This document shows positions 12,997 to 24,371 of a stretch of DNA of 53,323 nt, piece by piece; position 1 is the first letter of the stretch, and the number at the start of each line of letters is the position of its first letter. A program made the position numbers and the translations under genes. The notes beneath the pieces are model-generated. The model was not told the origin of the DNA. It saw only the letters and a program-made list of their open reading frames with translations, and did no database searches. The DNA is from a virus. The stretch is from IMG/VR virus record IMGVR_UViG_3300035179_000011, positions 1-53,323 of that record. One strand, written 5' to 3'.

Positions 12997-13659
12997 TTAG
13001 TCCGATCTCCTCTTCTTATATGGTGCAAGTTTCTCTTTGATTGCGTCCGTGAAAACATCTGGCGTACTAAGTCCAATAGGTGTCGGTCGTGTAAACCGAA
13101 TTTTGGAATTCAGCGAACGTTGCCAAATCGCGTTTAACGCGCCGACGACTAATTCCTCGCACGCCCACTTGATTTCGTCGGGTTCAGTCGCGTAGCCCGC
13201 CTTGTAAATGACGCGCATGTTGCCGATTCCGCTAATTGGTGCCACCGCATCCTTGATTACAATTCTGCCCGTGTCGCTGTCCATGTAATACGCAGTTATT
13301 AATTCCCAAACTGCTGTGTCGCCAAGGTTTGCCGTGTTTTTATGAACGGTTGTCACGCTTATTATTGGCGATTGACTTAGGCGGAACGTGCGTCGGTAAA
13401 CGTCGTAGATGCCAGTCCGCTCGGTTTCTGGATAGTGAAAAGTTGAGTCTTCTTCTTTAACGTCGAAGTAGTCAGTCACGGTTGACCCGCCGTTGAAGAA
13501 GTCGTTTAAGCGGTTGCAGTAGCGGTCTATCACGCGGCTGGCGCGCGACACGAGACGCTGGATGAATTTGTCGCTGTCGCTCTCATTATCAAAGCCAAGC
13601 TCTTCGTAAGTGGGCACACCGTAGTTTTTAACGTCGTCTACATAGCAATAATCTGCCAT
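12997..13659 (-). CDS. Head-tail connector (gp6-like adaptor)
   Basis: The N-terminal helix pair (SDKFIQRLVSRASRVIDRYCNRL, near residues 28-50) is typical for gp6-like/Phage_connect_1 adaptors that bind the portal. A beta section and C-terminal helices (DEIKWACEELVVGALNAIW) follow; the whole is 220 residues. It follows 13690-13992 in the structural operon and precedes the other neck genes. Confidence 0.65.
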   Translation of the reverse strand: MADYCYVDDVKNYGVPTYEELGFDNESDSDKFIQRLVSRASRVIDRYCNRLNDFFNGGSTVTDYFDVKEEDSTFHYPETERTGIYDVYRRTFRLSQSPIISVTTVHKNTANLGDTAVWELITAYYMDSDTGRIVIKDAVAPISGIGNMRVIYKAGYATEPDEIKWACEELVVGALNAIWQRSLNSKIRFTRPTPIGLSTPDVFTDAIKEKLAPYKKRRSD

Positions 13660-13689: not shown

Positions 13690-13992
13690 TTAACTACCTT
13701 CCACTAGGAATGTGAATTCTTCCGTGTTTTGAAGTGCGCCAACGGTGTAAGTTGCCGTCGTCACGAGTTTCCACATGCCGTAAACTGCGTCGGCTGGAAT
13801 GTTGTAGAGCAATTTGTATGTTCCAGTTCCCGTCTTAGTTAGGTCAGCCATTGTCTTTGTTGCAGCCGTTGTGCCATCGGGTTTCTTGATGGCGATACTA
13901 ATGGTTGTCGGATCAAACAAGGTTCCCGATTCGTTTTTGAACGTGAACACTTTGCCCAGTGTGTCGCTTCTGTAAAATCGTTGTTTAGTCAT
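13690..13992 (-). CDS. Ig-like virion protein, 100 residues
   Basis: The sequence is a single beta-sandwich-like domain (VFTFKNESGTLFDP..., ISIAIKKPDGT, TGTYKLLYNIP, GMWKLVTTATY), a pattern common to phage baseplate-upper-protein or Ig-like ornaments. It is the first gene after the late promoter at 14022-14062. Exact role unknown. Confidence 0.5.
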   Translation of the reverse strand: MTKQRFYRSDTLGKVFTFKNESGTLFDPTTISIAIKKPDGTTAATKTMADLTKTGTGTYKLLYNIPADAVYGMWKLVTTATYTVGALQNTEEFTFLVEGS

Positions 13993-14068: not shown

Positions 14069-15793
14069 TTACACGTCCTCGCACGAAATTGTGATTGGAT
14101 CAATGTCTGACATGCCTATGTCTATTGGCGTAATTGAAGACATGTCTATTACGATTTTGTAGTACGCCACAACAACTCCAAAGTAACCGTCAATTGCCAC
14201 GGTTTTCTGTGCTGCCAGTTTCTTCATGTATGTGTCCACGACAGCGTTTAGAGTCGTGACACGCCGAATGTACGTGTCAATGTTGGCTGTCACGGTAAAC
14301 GTTTTTGAAAAGTCAGAGTCAAGTGAAACCGATTTTTCTACGAGTTTCTCAAGAACTGTGTCAACGTTGCCCGTTAGAGTGTAAGTGTATAGTTGTTGAA
14401 TAATTTTTACGTCAATGCCGAACTGCTTTTGAATAACAGACCTTTTGAGTAATGAATCAAAATTACGTTGAAATTCGGGGGTTTTTTTGAAAACAGAATC
14501 AACATTAGGTTGTTTTAAATTGGTTTTTTCAAAGAACGAGTCAGCACCGAGTTGCTTCAGAATTGCCAACTTTTTGAGTAAAACATTAAATCCGCGCTGA
14601 ACTTCAACTGTTTTTTTCAAGAAACTGTCGAGGGCAACGTATCGCACCAAAGCCTTTCCTATATAAGCGTTCACGCCTACTGTTTTGGTTATTCCTCGTT
14701 TCTTTATGAACGCGTTAATAGTTCTGGATTTTGAAAACGTTTTTCTGAAGCGACCGTCAATGCCCATTGTTTTCTGGTAGTTTTTGAGCAAAATCGCGTC
14801 CACGTTTTTCGAGTTGAGAACGTCGTATTTTTTGAAAATAGCGTCGAGTTGACGGTCTAGATGAACAACCGTTATTGCACCCAATATTACGTCAAGTCCA
14901 AACGTCTTCAGTATTTCCTTTTTAAGTTGCACAACGTCAATGCCGTATTGTTCAAGAATCGCAAGTTTTCTGATTAAAGATGAAATGTCACTGCACTGTT
15001 GAACCGATTGTGCTTTAGTTATCGCGTCTATATTTCTGAGTCTTTCTTTTGAACTAGACTTAAATACTGAATCGACGGTTTTAGAGACAGAATATCCCTT
15101 TTTAAAAACAGCATCAGTATTAACTGTTTCTTGACTGAGTTTCTTGAAATCGCTGTCAATCGTTTTCTGTTTTAAAATCGCAAGTTTCTTGTTTACTATG
15201 TCAAAGTTTCTCTGTTTTTGAACACCTAATTTCTTGAGGGCAACGTCAATTAACGTCTGTTTTGATAATCTTTTCAACAACCAAGCGTCGATGCCGAGTG
15301 TTTTTTCAAGACGTTTCTTGAAATCGCCATCAATTGTTCTCTGCTTTAAAGCACCGAGTTTCTTGTTTAATATGTCAAAGTTTCTCTGTTTTTGGTAAAT
15401 TGCCTTTTCAACCACGGTTAAGTCTACACATTGCGTTATGCCGAGCTTTTTGAAAACGCTGTCAAACGCGGGTTCTTTTAGAAAGGTTTTTTTAATGACC
15501 GAATCAATAGAAAAAGTTTTTATGTTGATGTCGAGTTGTTCTCCAAAAAGAGAGGTATTTACTGTAGTTGTTCTTTCCGCCGTCAGAGTTGTTACTTTAA
15601 CGCTGTCGCCATTAGAGTAGCCGCTCGAATATTTCGTTGTATCGCCCAAATCAATCGCATATTCACCAACATTGTTAGTGTAAATCGTGCATTCTTGGCT
15701 TTTAGTCACGTTTCTTATGGTGACAGCTACGGTGTTTTGAAGAACGCCGTCCTTCTTGATTTTTCCGTAGATTACATAGGGATTTTGTGGCAT
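14069..15793 (-). CDS. Fibrous virion protein with about 29 tandem 14-17 residue repeats
   Basis: ATG 15793 follows GGGTGAC, and the stop of 15799-18162 overlaps that site, so the longer frame from 15838 is not used. Residues about 4-80 form a carboxypeptidase-regulatory/Ig-like beta domain (YVIYGKIKKDGVLQNT). The next roughly 450 residues are a tandem array with the pattern D-x-x-[FLI]-x-K-[KR]-x(4-6)-[KQ]-x-x-[FIV], mostly 14 or 15 residues per copy. The C-terminus (ITPIDIGMSDIDPITI) is acidic. This could be a beta-solenoid or coiled fibre on the virion. The distinct repeat makes an extended fibre the best guess. Confidence 0.7.
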   Translation of the reverse strand: MPQNPYVIYGKIKKDGVLQNTVAVTIRNVTKSQECTIYTNNVGEYAIDLGDTTKYSSGYSNGDSVKVTTLTAERTTTVNTSLFGEQLDINIKTFSIDSVIKKTFLKEPAFDSVFKKLGITQCVDLTVVEKAIYQKQRNFDILNKKLGALKQRTIDGDFKKRLEKTLGIDAWLLKRLSKQTLIDVALKKLGVQKQRNFDIVNKKLAILKQKTIDSDFKKLSQETVNTDAVFKKGYSVSKTVDSVFKSSSKERLRNIDAITKAQSVQQCSDISSLIRKLAILEQYGIDVVQLKKEILKTFGLDVILGAITVVHLDRQLDAIFKKYDVLNSKNVDAILLKNYQKTMGIDGRFRKTFSKSRTINAFIKKRGITKTVGVNAYIGKALVRYVALDSFLKKTVEVQRGFNVLLKKLAILKQLGADSFFEKTNLKQPNVDSVFKKTPEFQRNFDSLLKRSVIQKQFGIDVKIIQQLYTYTLTGNVDTVLEKLVEKSVSLDSDFSKTFTVTANIDTYIRRVTTLNAVVDTYMKKLAAQKTVAIDGYFGVVVAYYKIVIDMSSITPIDIGMSDIDPITISCEDV

Positions 15794-15798
15794 TTTTG

Positions 15799-18162
15799 TC
15801 ACCCGTAGTTGTGGTTCCAAATTCCCGCTGTGGTGCACCAGATGTAGAATTTATTATCGATGCTTGTAACTTGAATATTGGCGTTCACTGTGTAACCATA
15901 AACGAAGACGTATCTTGTTCCATTCGTATATTCCAAAACGCAGACAATCCAATTGATGTTATCCAAATTCAGGCTGATGTTGACCTGTCCTAGTGTATGT
16001 CCAACGTCGATTAATGTGGCTGAAAATGCGTTCCATCCCACGGAAAGAAGCGTTCCACCATATTTTGTGTCTAGTGGGTCTGCGTCCCAATTATCTGGAA
16101 TACCGTCGCCATCTGTGTCCGCATTAAACGGATTAGTATAATTTATAAAAAGTTCTTGATAATCGTTCCAAGTGTCGCCGTCACTATCCAATCCTTGTAA
16201 TGTAGAGTTACTTGGAAGATTTAAGATTATGAAGGTGCTGGCGTTTACCATGCTTACTAAGCACGGTTGTCCAGTTATTCCTGCTTTTAATCGGACGCTG
16301 AATTGATAAATTAGACTATCGTTAAAAGTGTGAATGTAAGGCGAGTTAGCCAAGTTTATATAGGCACAATCTAAATACCAATTATTATAAAGTGCCCCTC
16401 CCACAGTGAAATATAAATGTCTTTTCGAGGTTGCGTCGCCGTCAAATATGGTTGCGTTATACATTGTAGCGTCGTTCAATCGTTTTGAGTGCCATCCAAC
16501 ATAATTGAAATCTGTCGTGTTGGGTTGTGCACTATTCCACCACATATGAATGTAAACGTTGTTTATGACGTAAGAATTGCCGATGGTTGTTGTATTGTCA
16601 TACCATGCCATCACATAACCAGCGCAATAGCTTGTAGATTGATTTATTGGAGAAGCAGTTGCGTTCCAAATGCCCGTGTCTGTTCCCGACGCCCCGTCTT
16701 GTTCATGCGGAAACTGGTCGGGCGTACTGTAACCTGAACCTTGGTCGGTGTGTGCCCAATACCAATAATAAAACTGTTTATAGTTCAAGGTGGTTGTTGT
16801 ACAATTCATTATGAAGGTGCGGTTGTAAGCCTTTGAAATCCATTGATTTCCTGTGTTAACAAAAAATTTTATATCATTGACTGTTCCAGTGAGACTTGTG
16901 AGATTTTTGTATGCTGTCGCACCGTTTAATGTCATAGTGTAGTTTACGCCTTGGCATCGAACTTTCGCTTCTGTCGGCGTAAAGTTTCCGCAACTGATTT
17001 GTGTATAAAGCCAGTTGTGTGATTGTCTGCTATTGTTTATGGCTGAATCTCTGTCGGGTTTAACTATCGTTATTGTTGGTGTGCCTGAACTTCCAGTCAC
17101 ATTTAAGCGAATGCAATCAAAAAAGCTTCCAACACCGTATTGCGGTTTAAAGATAAGTTGTGCAGCATTCACTTTTGTTGGTGTGTTCAGGAAGGTTGAT
17201 ACGTATGCAACTGTGTGCCAGTGCCAAATATCTGTCCACGTTGTCCCAAACACATAGTCATATTGTGTCCACGTTGAGCCGTCTGTTAAGTTGAAATACC
17301 AATGATGTGCAGACTCGTCTTGAAGTGCAAAAACCTCTAAGGTAACGTTAGTAATTTGTATGAAAGTTGTGTCGGCAAAATCAAATTTTCCTTCTTTGCC
17401 TTGCGCTAAAGTAAGTTTAATATAGTTTGTCGGATAATCCCGCACATCTTCGTATGGGGATGTTCCAACGCAAGTTTGCGTTTGAAAATCCGTTGTTCTG
17501 CTTGCAACATAGAGAAGTTGATGTCCAGCGGCGGGAGTGTCTGGATGTCGATGTCCATAGTAAACTCTAACGGCGACACATGAACAATACGGTACATAAG
17601 TGTTAGCGGAATCGGCGCGTCCGTAAACTCCAGGTGCTGTTCCATTAATGTCATTGTAAGTCCATTCTACACCTGTTGATGGATTTGTTGTCCATGTATA
17701 AGTGTACCACTTGTAAACGGTCGTAAGACTTAATGCACCACTGTAATAACTGCCATATAACATAATTTTGCATGTTGTTCCGCTACCACTTGCTTTAAGT
17801 CGAGCATAAACGGTTACATTTATGTCATAATCCGATGGAAACCATTGCACATACCAGTTCTGTAATGTAAAATTTTCTTTATAATATAATGGATAATTTG
17901 CTGGACAGTAAACATAATCTGTGTCGTCTGGCGACGCAATAGTTTCATCAACTCTTAGATAGTCGTTAGTATCTGGATATTCTTCCCAATCCACAGAATA
18001 ACTGTCACCGTCCACATGTAATTCTTGCGTTTGCTGCGGAGTTCCACCAACGGACGGTGTTGGCGGAAACAAAACTATTGGAGTTAAAAGGGCAACAATT
18101 ATAGTAACAATTATGCTGATTGCCAACACAAATTTTTTCCATTCTTTCTTTATTGTTTCCAT
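15799..18162 (-). CDS. Large membrane-anchored beta-rich surface protein with Ca-binding repeats
   Basis: The N-terminus has a basic start and a hydrophobic segment (residues about 12-30, FVLAISIIVTIIVALLTPIVL), so it is a signal-anchor. The body is rich in aromatic residues, threonine and cysteine, built of beta-sandwich-like blocks. Near residue 690 come DSDGDTWNDYQE and DTDGDGIPDNWD, thrombospondin type 3 or dockerin-like calcium loops. The last part resembles an S-layer or adhesin stalk. At 787 residues it is a likely receptor-binding or host-surface-linked virion protein. It overlaps the transglutaminase-like gene. Confidence 0.65.
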   Translation of the reverse strand: METIKKEWKKFVLAISIIVTIIVALLTPIVLFPPTPSVGGTPQQTQELHVDGDSYSVDWEEYPDTNDYLRVDETIASPDDTDYVYCPANYPLYYKENFTLQNWYVQWFPSDYDINVTVYARLKASGSGTTCKIMLYGSYYSGALSLTTVYKWYTYTWTTNPSTGVEWTYNDINGTAPGVYGRADSANTYVPYCSCVAVRVYYGHRHPDTPAAGHQLLYVASRTTDFQTQTCVGTSPYEDVRDYPTNYIKLTLAQGKEGKFDFADTTFIQITNVTLEVFALQDESAHHWYFNLTDGSTWTQYDYVFGTTWTDIWHWHTVAYVSTFLNTPTKVNAAQLIFKPQYGVGSFFDCIRLNVTGSSGTPTITIVKPDRDSAINNSRQSHNWLYTQISCGNFTPTEAKVRCQGVNYTMTLNGATAYKNLTSLTGTVNDIKFFVNTGNQWISKAYNRTFIMNCTTTTLNYKQFYYWYWAHTDQGSGYSTPDQFPHEQDGASGTDTGIWNATASPINQSTSYCAGYVMAWYDNTTTIGNSYVINNVYIHMWWNSAQPNTTDFNYVGWHSKRLNDATMYNATIFDGDATSKRHLYFTVGGALYNNWYLDCAYINLANSPYIHTFNDSLIYQFSVRLKAGITGQPCLVSMVNASTFIILNLPSNSTLQGLDSDGDTWNDYQELFINYTNPFNADTDGDGIPDNWDADPLDTKYGGTLLSVGWNAFSATLIDVGHTLGQVNISLNLDNINWIVCVLEYTNGTRYVFVYGYTVNANIQVTSIDNKFYIWCTTAGIWNHNYG

Positions 18163-18665
18163 TCTTCAAAATGCTCCTTTGTTGTGTATGCGTTTCGAGA
18201 GTTGAAACAATACCAGAGTTTCCAGTTGGGCGGCACAACTTTCAAATTTGGATTCGTCCAATCTTGAAGTTCGCCATCGACGGTAACAACAGCGTGGAAT
18301 CCTGATGGCGTATTGTAGATATTAACCAAAACTTTGTAATATGGAATCAGTTTGTTGCGAACCAAAATTAAACATGCCAAAAGAATACTTCCATCTTCAC
18401 AATCCCCAAATCCGTCCGCAAGAGTTTCGTTTGGAAACTTCCAGAAATCCTTTTCTTCCGATTTGTAAATTATGTGAGTGTGAACCCAATCCAAAGACGA
18501 TTCAGTTGAAGAAAACTCAATCATCAATTTTCTCGGCAAGTATTTTGTGAAATCAAGAAACTTTGTCACTTCGATTGGTTCGGCACGTTTTGTGGTTTCA
18601 ATTATGCGAACTCGTTGGAGTCCGCGGTGTCGCATCAACCACCATTCCCTTAGCCAATCAAACAT
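18150..18665 (-). CDS. Transglutaminase-like cysteine peptidase
   Basis: In 171 residues the catalytic triad order Cys-His-Asp is visible: C89 in GFGDCEDGS, H124 in GFHAVV and D135 in LQDWTNP. This is the transglutaminase-like core used by viral and bacterial peptidases, including pseudomurein endoisopeptidases. ATG 18665 overlaps the upstream stop (TGATG). Lying between a tail fibre and surface-protein genes, it may trim host envelope protein or crosslink virion proteins. I cannot decide the substrate. Confidence 0.75.
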   Translation of the reverse strand: MFDWLREWWLMRHRGLQRVRIIETTKRAEPIEVTKFLDFTKYLPRKLMIEFSSTESSLDWVHTHIIYKSEEKDFWKFPNETLADGFGDCEDGSILLACLILVRNKLIPYYKVLVNIYNTPSGFHAVVTVDGELQDWTNPNLKVVPPNWKLWYCFNSRNAYTTKEHFEEWKQ

Positions 18666-19285
18666 CAATCAACACTTCCATCCTCGTGAATATGTTTTAT
18701 TTGTCCGCCAAATTTACCGAGCACGTAAATTGTCTCCACTATTTCGTCTCGCAACGCGAGAACCTGCTTGTCCGCTTTCATAACTGCATTTGTGTCGTGG
18801 TAGCCACACGATGGGCAAGTTGGCGACACCATCACGATAGTTTGTTCGCCCCGCTCTGTGTGTTGACGAAACGTTTCCCGAAAGGCGACGTTGGAAACTG
18901 GCAATTGTATTTTCGGGTTTAACGATTTATTACTAAATTGCCACGAGCAACCGCACTTCAAGCAAACATGAAAGTCGTAAACTGTAATGGTGATTTCCTT
19001 TTTGGCAACCAGTTTATCTCCGTCGTTAAGATTAATTCTTTGAAAGGGCAAATTTGAGGGGTGAACGTCAACTTCGACGTGCTGCTGTGTTTTCAACGCG
19101 TTCTGCACCTTATTGGCAAAATCTTTAGAAAACGGATACCACCCAAACCCTTTCAAAGTCGGCACGTCGCTTAAATGAAACACGTTGAGGTTTTCTCGTC
19201 CTGTTTCCAAGTCAAACTGTGGCAGTGCCCGACCGTTCTTGTATTCGGCAACCCAGAAGTAAACGATGCGAGAGCGGTTCAACAT
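18665..19285 (-). CDS. Zinc-ribbon structural-module protein, 206 residues
   Basis: A Cys pair CLKCGC at about 118 and a second CPSCGYH near 162 form one zinc ribbon in a beta-rich protein. The N-terminal half (VYFWVAEYKNGRALPQFD) has no recognised family. It sits between the tail fibre and the peptidase, with overlapping ends, suggesting a virion or assembly role. Confidence 0.5.
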   Translation of the reverse strand: MLNRSRIVYFWVAEYKNGRALPQFDLETGRENLNVFHLSDVPTLKGFGWYPFSKDFANKVQNALKTQQHVEVDVHPSNLPFQRINLNDGDKLVAKKEITITVYDFHVCLKCGCSWQFSNKSLNPKIQLPVSNVAFRETFRQHTERGEQTIVMVSPTCPSCGYHDTNAVMKADKQVLALRDEIVETIYVLGKFGGQIKHIHEDGSVD

Positions 19286-19293
19286 GTTTTCAC

Positions 19294-21624
19294 CTAAGTC
19301 TTCGTCGGATAAACTTTGAAGTAATACGGCACTCCATCGATGTCTATTTTTACAAGTTTTGGCGTTCCAGAAAGCGTTGCGTCTGCTTCATTTAGTGGGT
19401 TTTTTATTTGATTATTCTTCATATCAAACTGAGTTGTATTGAAAAGATATTCAATAGTTCCAGCATAATCCAATTCAAGACCCGCATTATCTGCATATTG
19501 TCTCCAATCTTGATTGTGAATTTGTGCGAATCTAATACTTGGTGTCGGATTATCTCTACCTGCGTTGTAGGTTGATGCAAGCCATATAGTCGAACCGTCC
19601 AAATAAATTAGATTAGCACAACTTGCTCCTGTTGCGTATGGATATGGATATGAGTCCCAATAACCGCCTTGAACGCAAAAATTATCAAGAGTCGCAGAAG
19701 AATTTGCTGATGCTACTCCTGCGCCTGTTCCAGCCGTAATTGTTATTGCAGAACCATTGGCTATGACTGATGAGGCTGCTATAACCCATTGTCTGTTTGT
19801 GTTGTCATAACTTGCCAGTATTCCAATTTCTACCGCATCGTCTTTGACTTGTTTTCCGATGTCGGTAGTAACACAATTCACGTATCCCGTAGCACTTAGA
19901 TTCAACGATGAATGTGTTCTTATAATGCCTTGGAAAATTATGTAGTATGGGTCGCCTGATACTACCGCTTCAGAAAACGCAGATGCTACAGTGATTGTCT
20001 TTGTCGTTGCGTTGAATCCACTTATTGTTTTTGCTTCCCATCCATAGGTTGCACCTAAATAAACATATAGTATGCCGCCAATCCAGAAGTCTTTTGCCTG
20101 AACGAGGTGTTCACTCGTCGTGTCTATAAGCGTGGTTGTTGAACCGCCCGTCGCAGTCCAACCGAGACTTGAAAGTATTCCGTTTGCTTCAGCATACGCG
20201 TCATTTGCGATGTGTCCGTAACCAGAAATGTCCCATCCAAGACGATTAATACTTGCATCAACAGAAAACGTACACTGGTTTGCATTTCTATTGTTTATCT
20301 TTATTCCCGTTTCACAGAATACAACGCTTCCATGAAAATAATTTCGATTGGCTGTAGATGTATTTCCTATGTCAGAGTCAAGAAGAATGCCTATGCTTCC
20401 AGTTGGTATCACGTTTACAAAGGGGTCACGCCCGTGAATCTCTACATCAAAGTCATTTGTATAGCATCCCCACTCGCTATAATGAACGTTTACCTTTAAG
20501 CCGACTCCGTTTGTTGGAACATTTATTACTCTAAAATTGTGTCGTGTTTGCCAACAATCTTCGACGTGAATACCGATACTCGCAATCTGGTTCATGTCAA
20601 CTGTGCAATTTTGAATTCCGCCAAAAGAAGGGTAATGTCCATCCCGCGTATACTTTATCATTGTGTTAAATCCCAAAGTGGCTGTTGCCTGAATAGTCCA
20701 TCCGTTACAGTCTACTCGAATATGTTTATCGGTCAAAAGAAGGGTAGAATTTAATGGTGCTGTTTGCTCTCCAATAAACTGTATTGAGCCATAAAGAGTT
20801 ATGGCACCCACTGCAGCGTTGAAGACTGTCGCGAAATCAGTGTTACTAGAGAATATAGTGCCATCTTTGTCTAATGCATAGTATGTAGTGCCAGACTTGT
20901 ATAAACTTAGAACGAGTTTATATGGATGTAATCCGCCACCTCTACTGCCGTGTTGCGTATCAGTTAAAACTCCGCTTGCTCCACCAACTATATCTGGATG
21001 TTGCCCAGTGGTTGTTCGAGTTCCATGTATTGTATCGGTCATGGTTGTCCATGAAACGTCTGTTCCGTCGCTTTTCAACAGTTGATTTGCTGTGCCCTTA
21101 GCCAACCGACTCAGTTTAGGAGTGGCATTACCAACTAGAACATCGCCTCTGACAATTGACGCTGCTAAAGTGTCGCCGTGCTTTGCGGAAAGAATGTTGT
21201 GAACGTCTGCCGTGTTCTCGAAAGTTTGAACTGCTGAACCATTCCAAAACTTGTAAACGTTGCTGGTTGTGTTGAACCACCAATATCCTTTTTGGCTTGT
21301 GCCCCATCCAGTTGTTGACGGATCGCTCGCAAGTAGTGGACACGCCAACTGTTTGCCTTGGGCACTGTAGATTTTGCGTGCGCCCTGATAATCCTCTATG
21401 AAGAGAATCGAATTGCCATAAGTAACTGTGCCGTCCAACGTCATTTCTTTCAGGTAAATTATGCCGCCACTCGTGAGAGCGTTAACAGCGGCTTGCTGAA
21501 CGACGGCTTTGCTTGGGTCACTGTAATCTGTTCCGCCGCACGTATTGCACCGCGCCCAATACTTCGAGGTTGAAGTATCGTAATAAACCGTGTAACTCGA
21601 ATTTATCCTATCTTTTGTGCTCAT
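19294..21624 (-). CDS. Tail spike/fibre with pectin-lyase-like region, 776 residues
   Basis: The early part includes TGWGTSQKGYWWFNTTSNVYKF, a phrase common in phage fibre anchors, followed by a hydrophilic hinge. From about residue 290 a parallel beta-helix pattern appears (GSIQFIGEQTAPLNSTLLL..., NCTVDMNQIASIGIHV, NRNYFHGSVVFCETGIKINN), typical of spike proteins that bind or cleave polysaccharides. A beta-rich C-terminal cap follows. It likely recognises the host surface; catalytic residues are not visible. Confidence 0.65.
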   Translation of the reverse strand: MSTKDRINSSYTVYYDTSTSKYWARCNTCGGTDYSDPSKAVVQQAAVNALTSGGIIYLKEMTLDGTVTYGNSILFIEDYQGARKIYSAQGKQLACPLLASDPSTTGWGTSQKGYWWFNTTSNVYKFWNGSAVQTFENTADVHNILSAKHGDTLAASIVRGDVLVGNATPKLSRLAKGTANQLLKSDGTDVSWTTMTDTIHGTRTTTGQHPDIVGGASGVLTDTQHGSRGGGLHPYKLVLSLYKSGTTYYALDKDGTIFSSNTDFATVFNAAVGAITLYGSIQFIGEQTAPLNSTLLLTDKHIRVDCNGWTIQATATLGFNTMIKYTRDGHYPSFGGIQNCTVDMNQIASIGIHVEDCWQTRHNFRVINVPTNGVGLKVNVHYSEWGCYTNDFDVEIHGRDPFVNVIPTGSIGILLDSDIGNTSTANRNYFHGSVVFCETGIKINNRNANQCTFSVDASINRLGWDISGYGHIANDAYAEANGILSSLGWTATGGSTTTLIDTTSEHLVQAKDFWIGGILYVYLGATYGWEAKTISGFNATTKTITVASAFSEAVVSGDPYYIIFQGIIRTHSSLNLSATGYVNCVTTDIGKQVKDDAVEIGILASYDNTNRQWVIAASSVIANGSAITITAGTGAGVASANSSATLDNFCVQGGYWDSYPYPYATGASCANLIYLDGSTIWLASTYNAGRDNPTPSIRFAQIHNQDWRQYADNAGLELDYAGTIEYLFNTTQFDMKNNQIKNPLNEADATLSGTPKLVKIDIDGVPYYFKVYPTKT

Positions 21625-21683: not shown

Positions 21684-22274
21684 CTAAATTTCGTCGTAAC
21701 TAAATGTCAACGTTTCGTCGGTTTGTTCGCCCTGCGTGGCATCAGTTGCCACTTTAGCTTGCAATACAACCGATTTGCACTTGCCCGCAGCCGTGTGGTC
21801 AGAACTATCCACAGTTGCTTTGTTTGCGCTAGTCCAATACGTGAAACTTCGTGTTTTAGTTGTTTGAGCGTTGTAATAGCCGTGTCCGTTCGTCGCGTCT
21901 TCAATCGTGTCGCCAGTCGTGCTCTCTGTGCCCGTTGCCAAATCATATTCCGTGTCCATTGGGCAGCCAATGTCGCCAGTGTCGCGGTTGCCAAGTCTTA
22001 ATTCGCCGTTTGTTCCAACGTTCCAGCCCAGTGTCCCATCGCCCCAAAATTTGATGTTGTTGATTTTCGTAAAAGTGCCGCCAGTTATTTTCAAATATAC
22101 GTGTATCCAGTAGGAATAGTTGAAGCCACTCGTCGGAATAGGAATTGGGTATGTAGTATCTGTAGGCGAAAACTGATCTTTTGTTTGCAAACGGGTACTC
22201 GCCGTTATTTCTGCTTCTGAAGGTGCACCGTCCGATCCGCCATAGCCTTGATACACTAAAACTGTTGCTACCAT
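21684..22274 (-). CDS. Beta-rich virion protein, 196 residues
   Basis: The sequence has long alternating strands (YWIHVYLKITGGTFTKINNIKFW) with Gly/Thr-rich loops, like capsid-decorating or tail-associated Ig domains. It is the first gene under a late promoter at 22287-22351 and starts at ATG 22274 after CTGGAGAC. Specific function unknown. Confidence 0.5.
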   Translation of the reverse strand: MVATVLVYQGYGGSDGAPSEAEITASTRLQTKDQFSPTDTTYPIPIPTSGFNYSYWIHVYLKITGGTFTKINNIKFWGDGTLGWNVGTNGELRLGNRDTGDIGCPMDTEYDLATGTESTTGDTIEDATNGHGYYNAQTTKTRSFTYWTSANKATVDSSDHTAAGKCKSVVLQAKVATDATQGEQTDETLTFSYDEI

Positions 22275-23279: not shown

Positions 23280-24371
23280 CTACTGCAAGTCCCTTATTTT
23301 GCCGCTCGTGTTGAAACGGTTTGCACCGAGTTCAGCGATAGTCAAGAAGTAGGCTTCGTTGGTTAAAGTGTCAGATGTTGGGAATGGTTTGCTAATGTAA
23401 TTAGTCGGCATCAGAACCTTGATGAACACGTTGGAAGTGTCTATCAAATAGATTCTGCTAATAGTATCCTTTTTCACGTCGTCGTCAAAGAATATTGGAA
23501 TGCCATCATACGTGCTTACTTGGAATCCGCCTTCAACGCCAGCCAATGTTTGAACGCCGTTTATTGTTTTTGTTGCCCACGCTTCGCCCATGAATCTTTG
23601 CTTTGCCTCTAACAGGCTCACCCAAGTGTCGTATGTGTCGTATCCCGTTAAGAAAATCAAGTCTTCAGTTCTTGCGCCCGCCGTCCTGCATTTTCTTATG
23701 AGTTCGTTGATAAGGCTCAATGTTAAATCTCTTGGTGTGGCACTGTTGTGTATGACTTGAGCATCGTAGGTTGTCGCGGCATCTCTGTCTACGCCATAGA
23801 TGTCTCCGTCTGTCGCGACATCAACCATGTTGTTGGCGACTGTAGACTCAGCCATACTTGAGCATACTCTGTCAATGCTTTCAATGTTGTTGCTTGCGAC
23901 TGTACTTACATCTGTGAGAAGCATCTTGTCAATTTCGTGCGCGTGTCCTTCAGCAAATGCTTGTCTCAACGCTGCTGGATCAAACACGTCGTCTTTGCCC
24001 ACCAATGCGTCCATTGTTAAGCTAACGTTCCACCCGCCGATTATCTGTTTCGGTGTTGCCTTCAACGTTGCCAAAGTCGGTTTCACAGTTTCTGGCAAAC
24101 TGGCTACTTCTGACACACCAGCCGCCCATGTTGGGGCTGTCGTCATAACGCGCCATCCAGACCTGTCCCAGACTTCTTTGCGTAGAAGACTCCAAACGTT
24201 CGATGCGAGGTTCAAATATGTGAAAGCTTGTCTTCCGTACAAGGCTGAATAGACAGTTGCGCCAGTGCCAGTGTACAATGGGGCATCCACTTTTTTGAAG
24301 ATTTGTCTCGCCATCTTCTGTGGTTCATCATACCACATTTTACAGTATTCTTCTATTGTAAAGTTGCTCAT
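23280..24371 (-). CDS. HK97-fold major capsid protein
   Basis: The 363-residue protein comes right after the protease/scaffold gene with a four-base overlap, the defining gene order. It has features of the fold: an N-arm, an E-loop-like region and a P-domain helix (EGHAHEIDKMLLTDV near residue 140), then an A-domain with PRDLTLSLINELIRKCR and FDDDVKKDT. No extra insertion domain is obvious. It forms the icosahedral shell. Confidence 0.75.
   Translation of the reverse strand: MSNFTIEEYCKMWYDEPQKMARQIFKKVDAPLYTGTGATVYSALYGRQAFTYLNLASNVWSLLRKEVWDRSGWRVMTTAPTWAAGVSEVASLPETVKPTLATLKATPKQIIGGWNVSLTMDALVGKDDVFDPAALRQAFAEGHAHEIDKMLLTDVSTVASNNIESIDRVCSSMAESTVANNMVDVATDGDIYGVDRDAATTYDAQVIHNSATPRDLTLSLINELIRKCRTAGARTEDLIFLTGYDTYDTWVSLLEAKQRFMGEAWATKTINGVQTLAGVEGGFQVSTYDGIPIFFDDDVKKDTISRIYLIDTSNVFIKVLMPTNYISKPFPTSDTLTNEAYFLTIAELGANRFNTSGKIRDLQ

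Follow-up and report, generated by a model that had tools for sequence, protein, structure and literature searches.

The gene at positions 14,069 to 15,793 of the window (the whole stretch of DNA analyzed, a 53,323-base contig of an uncultured virus) encodes a tandem repeat protein, P0001, that is probably an elongated appendage on the particles of an archaeal tailed virus. We put the probability of this reading at about 55%. P0001 would be anchored by its N-terminus, probably at the head or neck, and would present a β-rich, rapidly exchanged shaft to the host. The reading draws on the repeat array, homology to a repeat that is widespread in phages, a head/neck gene context, a conserved partner gene and a fixed anchor domain with a variable shaft.

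In tblastn searches the major capsid protein (MCP) of the window matches the haloarchaeal viruses HCTV-5/HVTV-1 and the Methanofastidiosa virus vir519, and nothing bacterial. The window also encodes a portal, a family B DNA polymerase, a primase-polymerase and a phrog_442 head-tail adaptor. Together these genes make an archaeal host likely. MCP-based retrieval found nothing. The structural block is on the minus strand, with the repeat gene on the same strand as its neighbors. Its order is MCP, small genes, 196-aa protein, 776-aa tailspike-like protein, transglutaminase-like protein, 787-aa adhesin-like protein, repeat protein, 100-aa Ig/MG2-like protein, adaptor and tail genes. The following members are referred to below.

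23280..24371, minus strand: major capsid protein of the archaeal tailed-virus type (phrog_24667, E=8e-52; tblastn matches to HCTV-5/HVTV-1 and vir519)
21684..22274, minus strand: unnamed 196-aa protein of a family of 165–210 aa (homologous genes next to the repeat genes of L008, L013 and L022; co-occurrence; portal positions)
18150..18668, minus strand: transglutaminase-like protein, DUF553 (PF04473, 22.3 bits, above the cut-off of 20.5)
15799..18162, minus strand: adhesin-like protein of 787 aa with an N-terminal hydrophobic segment and DSDGD-type Ca-binding-like motifs (from its sequence)
13690..13992, minus strand: Ig/MG2-like protein of 100 aa, P0003, directly downstream of the repeat gene (MG2 domain, E=2.9e-6, just under the cut-off)
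12997..13659, minus strand: head-tail adaptor (neck) gene (phrog_442, E=2.1e-14)

P0001 is thus encoded between the MCP and the phrog_442 adaptor, in the head/neck gene module. The sequence-only reading had placed it between adhesin genes and neck genes, which agrees with the adhesins upstream and the adaptor downstream. Gene position alone is insufficient to locate a protein in the virion, and the hydrophobic segment of the upstream adhesin is possibly an export segment.

The repeat gene starts with the ATG at 15793 and stops at 14069–14071; its product has 574 residues. The frame is open slightly further upstream, to 15838. The start lies 5 nt past the end of the 787-aa gene and is preceded by a GGTGA-like ribosome-binding sequence. 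The product divides into three parts.

15521..15793, minus strand: N-terminal domain (residues 1–91), a TTR/Ig-like (CarboxypepD_reg-like) β-sandwich and proposed virion anchor (conserved in L002/L004 and L057; predicted strands)
14159..15520, minus strand: array of 31 units of 14–17 residues each, the proposed shaft (segmentation, unit composition and match to a profile from other viruses)
14072..14158, minus strand: C-terminal tail (residues 546–574) after the array (conserved in the full-length homologue L057)

Unsupervised segmentation yields 31 uninterrupted units over about residues 92–545 (window 15520..14159). The score is 503 bits, compared with 195 ± 8 bits for 40 shuffles retrained identically (best shuffle 224). 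This confirms the tandem repeat noticed earlier; the count by eye of about 29 units was slightly low. Unit spacings are 14 (15 times), 15 (13 times), 16 (once) and 17 (once), and the consensus is K-[QT]-x-x-[IVF]-D-[SA]-x-[FLI]-K-K-x-x-x(-x). Position 6 is Asp in 26/31 units and Asp or Asn in 29/31. A hydrophobic residue precedes it in 29/31 and another occupies position 9 in 27/31. Position 11 is K or R in 26/31, both basic positions are filled in only 18/31, position 1 is K in 17/31 and positions 1–2 read KQ, KT or KS in 16/31. From the unit described earlier, the Asp and the hydrophobic positions are therefore firm, and the KK pair and the KQ/KT linker are majority features.

At the DNA level the unit copies have diverged and TRF found no array in the gene. 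One pair of 96-nt segments is an exception, being 82% identical at a distance of 174 nt (four units), and reflects the fairly recent duplication of four units as a block. The other copies are old. A strong 43-residue autocorrelation had hinted at a coil with three units in each turn. Such a coil could show as a super-periodicity in the order of the units; none is present in P0001 or nine relatives, and the suggestion was dropped.

The N-terminal domain of P0001 occurs on three other contigs, namely G013 (IMGVR_UViG_3300033150_001646), L004 and L002. Searches of viral and genome contigs with an N-terminal profile returned only L002/L004, owing to the narrow peptide patterns used. The G013 protein, L057, is a full-length homologue of about 28–29% identity (E=1e-63). 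It is unannotated and shares the N-terminal domain, D-x-x-x-K-K repeats and the C-terminal tail (ITPIDIGMSDIDPITISCED in P0001, YNPVSITSSEFQPLKIECET in L057). With 510 aa it differs in having fewer units. G013, an archaeal-type virus, is collinear with the window (identities of 70% for a terminase-like 513-aa protein, 64% for the polymerase, 59% for the portal and 55% for the adaptor) and keeps the order transglutaminase-like protein, adhesin, repeat protein, 100-aa Ig-like protein, adaptor. The tailspike-like protein (776 aa, 19294–21624, minus strand) has no counterpart in this otherwise collinear virus. P0001 (29%) is less conserved in G013 than P0003 (54%), the adaptor (55%) and the portal (59%) and therefore ranks with the most rapidly diverging products of the block. 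Of the adjacent adhesin, just the final 90 residues are retained in G013.

In L002 and L004 the N-terminal domain is 65–81% identical to that of P0001, and the remainder is an entirely different repeat protein. The units have 19 residues in L004 (RPFRFMKLTQNLNTSHTLT) and 20 in L002; both are unrelated to the unit of P0001. The proteins at L004:6001-7653 and L002:1478-3874 have repeats almost free of acidic residues (about 1%), with net charges of +60 (L004) and +82 (L002). Most genes shared between the window and these two contigs are only 25–57% identical in protein sequence. Around the P0001 start codon there is an island of ~62–90% DNA identity, from 250 nt before to 170–190 nt after the codon, with flanks of ~50%. 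The C-terminal domain of the adhesin-like protein (80 residues) is 60–67% identical in L002/L004 and the rest differs. An island with divergent flanks is most simply read as a fixed junction, formed by the adhesin C-terminus and the repeat-protein N-terminus, with the arms exchanged on both sides.

The neighboring genes vary to different degrees. Among relatives, only the last 80–90 residues of the adhesin-like protein (15799–18162) are kept and the rest is replaced. The positional equivalent of P0003 in L004 is BppU_N-like. The transglutaminase-like gene (18150–18668, minus strand) is syntenic in G013 and L004. Most prokaryotic transglutaminase-like domains are proteases. Cross-linking of the K/Q-rich array by this protein was considered and set aside, as the L002 array is Q-poor and the prokaryotic domains are mostly proteases; an action on its K/Q-rich neighbors, as protease or cross-linker, is only an idea.

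The N-terminal domain is about 85–91 residues long and β-sandwich-like. The AlphaFold2 model has four strands at residues 7–48 (pLDDT 52–70). The L002 domain matches CarboxypepD_reg (PF13620) with 18.1 bits, below the gathering cut-off of 32.3 bits. Membership in PF13620 is not claimed; the proposed likeness is limited to a β-sandwich that may work in a similar way. The Ig-like N-terminal domain of the sequence-only reading is compatible with these data.

P0001 might instead stay on the surface of the infected cell or be released from it, acting in superinfection or adhesion, and not be a part of the virion. Such a role would suit the adhesin-like neighbor, with its N-terminal hydrophobic segment and Ca-binding-like motifs, and the DNA island shared at the junction. 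However, neither P0001 nor L057 begins with a hydrophobic or signal-like segment, and the gene lies inside a head/neck operon. We regard a cellular location as very unlikely and favor the virion appendage.

The repeat unit is found far beyond these close relatives. A degenerate DNA pattern of two D[AS]-hydrophobic-hydrophobic-basic-basic motifs 14 codons apart recovered ten viral contigs and two genome contigs, all encoding long repeat proteins, and a 15-codon version added more. The pattern matches L017, L018, L020 and L021 are unrelated low-complexity sequence and were rejected. The unit TKTFTADAILKKTQ is the consensus of dozens of long proteins from uncultured tailed phages. These proteins (L007-L016, L019, L022, L043, L044 and others) share with P0001 the 14–15-residue period, the Asp and basic positions, the head-module context and a partner gene of ~190 aa. 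Unlike P0001 they are more regular and less basic, have a T-rich linker and carry other N-terminal domains. Several relatives fuse the repeats to domains that are LamG- or propeller-like by appearance. L050, L052 and L055, on contigs of ~71–98 kb, are giant repeat proteins with open frames of 866 to 2309 residues and have cysteine-rich globular inserts among the repeats.

A two-unit profile built from the units of other viruses scores 33.1 bits (E=1.7e-9) on P0001, against at most 14.1 bits in 200 shuffles; P0007 (L002) and P0008 (L004) are unmatched. As P0001 was left out of it, this profile is the independent test; matches of alignment A4 in the window are partly circular because A4 contains P0001 segments. 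P0001 has the features of the 14-residue DAxLKK unit: a spacing of 14–15, the Asp followed by two hydrophobic positions, and basic residues. Judged by these comparisons, it is a divergent member of a widespread and apparently unnamed repeat family and not a unique archaeal invention.

Searches of Pfam, PHROGs, the PDB and phage records with P0001 gave nothing significant and no profile match above the curated cut-off. The TKTFTADAILKKTQ-unit proteins have no model in Pfam or PHROGs and no sequence match in the PDB. For the regular relatives, weak and scattered Pfam/PHROG matches of low-complexity type (Polo_box_4, DUF948, DUF2430 and similar) were discarded. A literature search with motif strings found no text describing the unit. 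Profile comparison, which had been proposed earlier, links P0001 to the units of other viruses and to no named family, in line with the view that no such family has this unit. The earlier notion of a novel archaeal virus fiber holds in part. A virion appendage is likely because full-length and repeat homologues occur in other tailed viruses; the appendage is not peculiar to one archaeal virus, as the unit is widespread in uncultured bacterial phages.

The net charge of P0001 is +38, compared with values around zero or acidic in many homologous arrays. A charged ladder, suggested earlier, is therefore no general principle of the repeat. With its head-module position and net charges of +38 here, +60 in L004 and +82 in L002, the array could act inside the head or be ejected, as a basic stretch touching packaged DNA. 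The many near-neutral or acidic arrays speak against this, as do the N-terminal domain of extracellular-adhesion type and the relatives with carbohydrate-binding-type domains. An internal or ejected protein is very unlikely, and an external appendage agrees better with these features.

The position of the repeat gene bears on where such an appendage would sit. It lies between the portal and the prohead protease/MCP in L008, L013 and L022, just before the portal in L009, and between portal and adaptor in G002, G006 and G010. L014/G006 and G003 also have a repeat copy nearer the tail genes, and head attachment may not be general. A shaft attached at the tail, as a tail fiber or baseplate-associated fiber, is rather unlikely but deserves consideration. 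Adhesin and tailspike-like genes adjoin the repeat gene of the window, and a repeat gene follows the tail genes in some relatives (the second copy of G006; G003). An Oceanospirillum phage encodes a 14-residue-repeat protein between its tape measure and tail-fiber genes. The rapid divergence of P0001 is also typical of receptor-binding fibers. On the other hand, where landmark genes are present, most relatives have the repeat gene between portal/MCP and adaptor and not past the tape measure, and the partner gene is portal-proximal. These positions favor the head or neck as the site of the appendage.

The partner is the unnamed 196-aa protein, which is 82% identical in G013, more than any other protein of the block. 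It has no match in Pfam, PHROG or the PDB. Homologues of 181–190 residues with 27–34% identity (E=3e-13 to 2e-19) lie close to the repeat gene in L008, L013 and L022. The partner profile matches 19/27 repeat contigs and 4/40 contigs from the same loose pattern that were not called repeat-bearing; on closer analysis these four do encode repeat proteins. By an objective chain-length rule the co-occurrence is 11/16 versus 2/38 (p=2.8e-6); an HMM finds the repeat in both exceptions (L040, L064). If HMM-positive contigs are counted, a classification made after seeing the data, it is 13/18 versus 0/36 (p=8e-9). Partner and repeat genes are always on the same strand and within ~8 kb, usually within 3 kb, except in G001 and G007, where the two genes would be adjacent only if the contig ends were joined. 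The window conforms, with a protein of the 165–210 aa family nearby on the same strand. The partner often comes directly after the portal, as in G004, G005, G006 and G023. No homologue was detected on the L004 and L002 contigs, though both keep the anchor domain. The family also occurs in Methanosarcinales virus vir525 (L085, BK063673.1), with homologues beside the portal there and in bacterial phages. In the same virus a reverse transcriptase gene lies between tail genes and hints at a diversity-generating retroelement.

Structure prediction gives a limited view of the shaft. The AlphaFold2 model of P0001 (13 aligned sequences) has a pLDDT of 35, and the N-terminal β-sandwich alone is moderately confident. 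Its C-terminal half is drawn with approximately one strand per unit. The regular relative L013 (11 units, 27 rows), standing for the family consensus, reaches a pLDDT of 62 and a pTM of 0.52, with one strand of 8–12 residues per unit. The repeat models have no fold match in the PDB or BFVD at E<=0.001. Thus the AlphaFold check proposed earlier, run on monomers, suggests one β strand per repeat unit at modest confidence, and the regular β-solenoid was not confirmed. Modeling of the monomer is expected to fail if the protein is an obligate trimer, and the low confidence neither confirms nor excludes a fiber.

The very low pLDDT and missing fold match would also agree with a flexible, largely disordered charged linker or bristle, in which selection acts on composition and spacing only. 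Total replacement of the array by 19/20-residue repeats is tolerated, which fits such a linker. The strict hydrophobic and Asp positions, conserved across distant viruses, and the consistent prediction of one strand per unit argue for a folded unit, and we consider disorder improbable.

For the virion appendage the following arrangement is proposed. The N-terminal β-sandwich would anchor P0001 on the virion, possibly helped by the adhesin C-terminal domain, the portal-proximal 196-aa protein or both. The 31 units of 14–15 residues would form a β-rich shaft, with a strand and a turn per unit. This shaft could serve as a spacer and as a low-affinity contact surface toward host surface polymers. 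It would change fast by unit duplication and by exchange of whole arrays behind the fixed anchor. We infer the presence in the virion, attachment site, oligomeric state and host contact from the gene data. More tentatively, and at less than even odds, archaeal and bacterial tailed viruses may share an undescribed two-component head/neck appendage. It would consist of a ~190-aa portal-proximal protein and a fiber with a shaft of 14-residue β-strand units, and the whole shaft could be replaced by unrelated repeats while the anchor stays the same.

P0001 leads to a recognizable unnamed family, in which a short unit builds proteins of 400–2300 residues in tailed viruses of bacteria and archaea. 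It goes together with a portal-proximal partner gene that is likewise unnamed. Annotators thereby gain two new profiles, and the family is a concrete target for structural virologists. The whole-array swap behind a conserved anchor is a clear example of modular exchange in uncultured archaeal viruses and concerns a part that probably contacts the host.

Among cultured phages, a possible relative is the 'discoidin domain-containing protein' of Oceanospirillum phage vB_OliS_GJ44 (QSM00608.1), a virion-module protein with 14-residue T-P-A-D-A-V-P-V-Q units (TPADAVPVQSSTQA). It matches L010 weakly (E=6e-5). Unlike P0001, it has Pro-rich units, a tail-gene context and a C-terminal discoidin domain.

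Other known systems are compared for the way they work, and P0001 is not assigned to any of them. Phi29 gp8.5 head fibers, SPP1 gp12 and T4 Hoc are optional head-surface appendages that aid host adhesion (PMC7602432). They are built of coiled-coil, collagen-like or Ig chains and have no sequence relation to the 14-residue β-type unit. They resemble the appendage proposed for P0001 in combining a capsid-binding domain with an elongated part. The turrets of the archaeal siphovirus HFTV1 have deacetylase-like/galactose-binding heads and not repeat shafts. By analogy of function they are similar to the proposed P0001 as head-borne structures of an archaeal tailed virus, and they are proposed to mediate head contact with the archaeal S-layer before the tail engages (PMC12494034).
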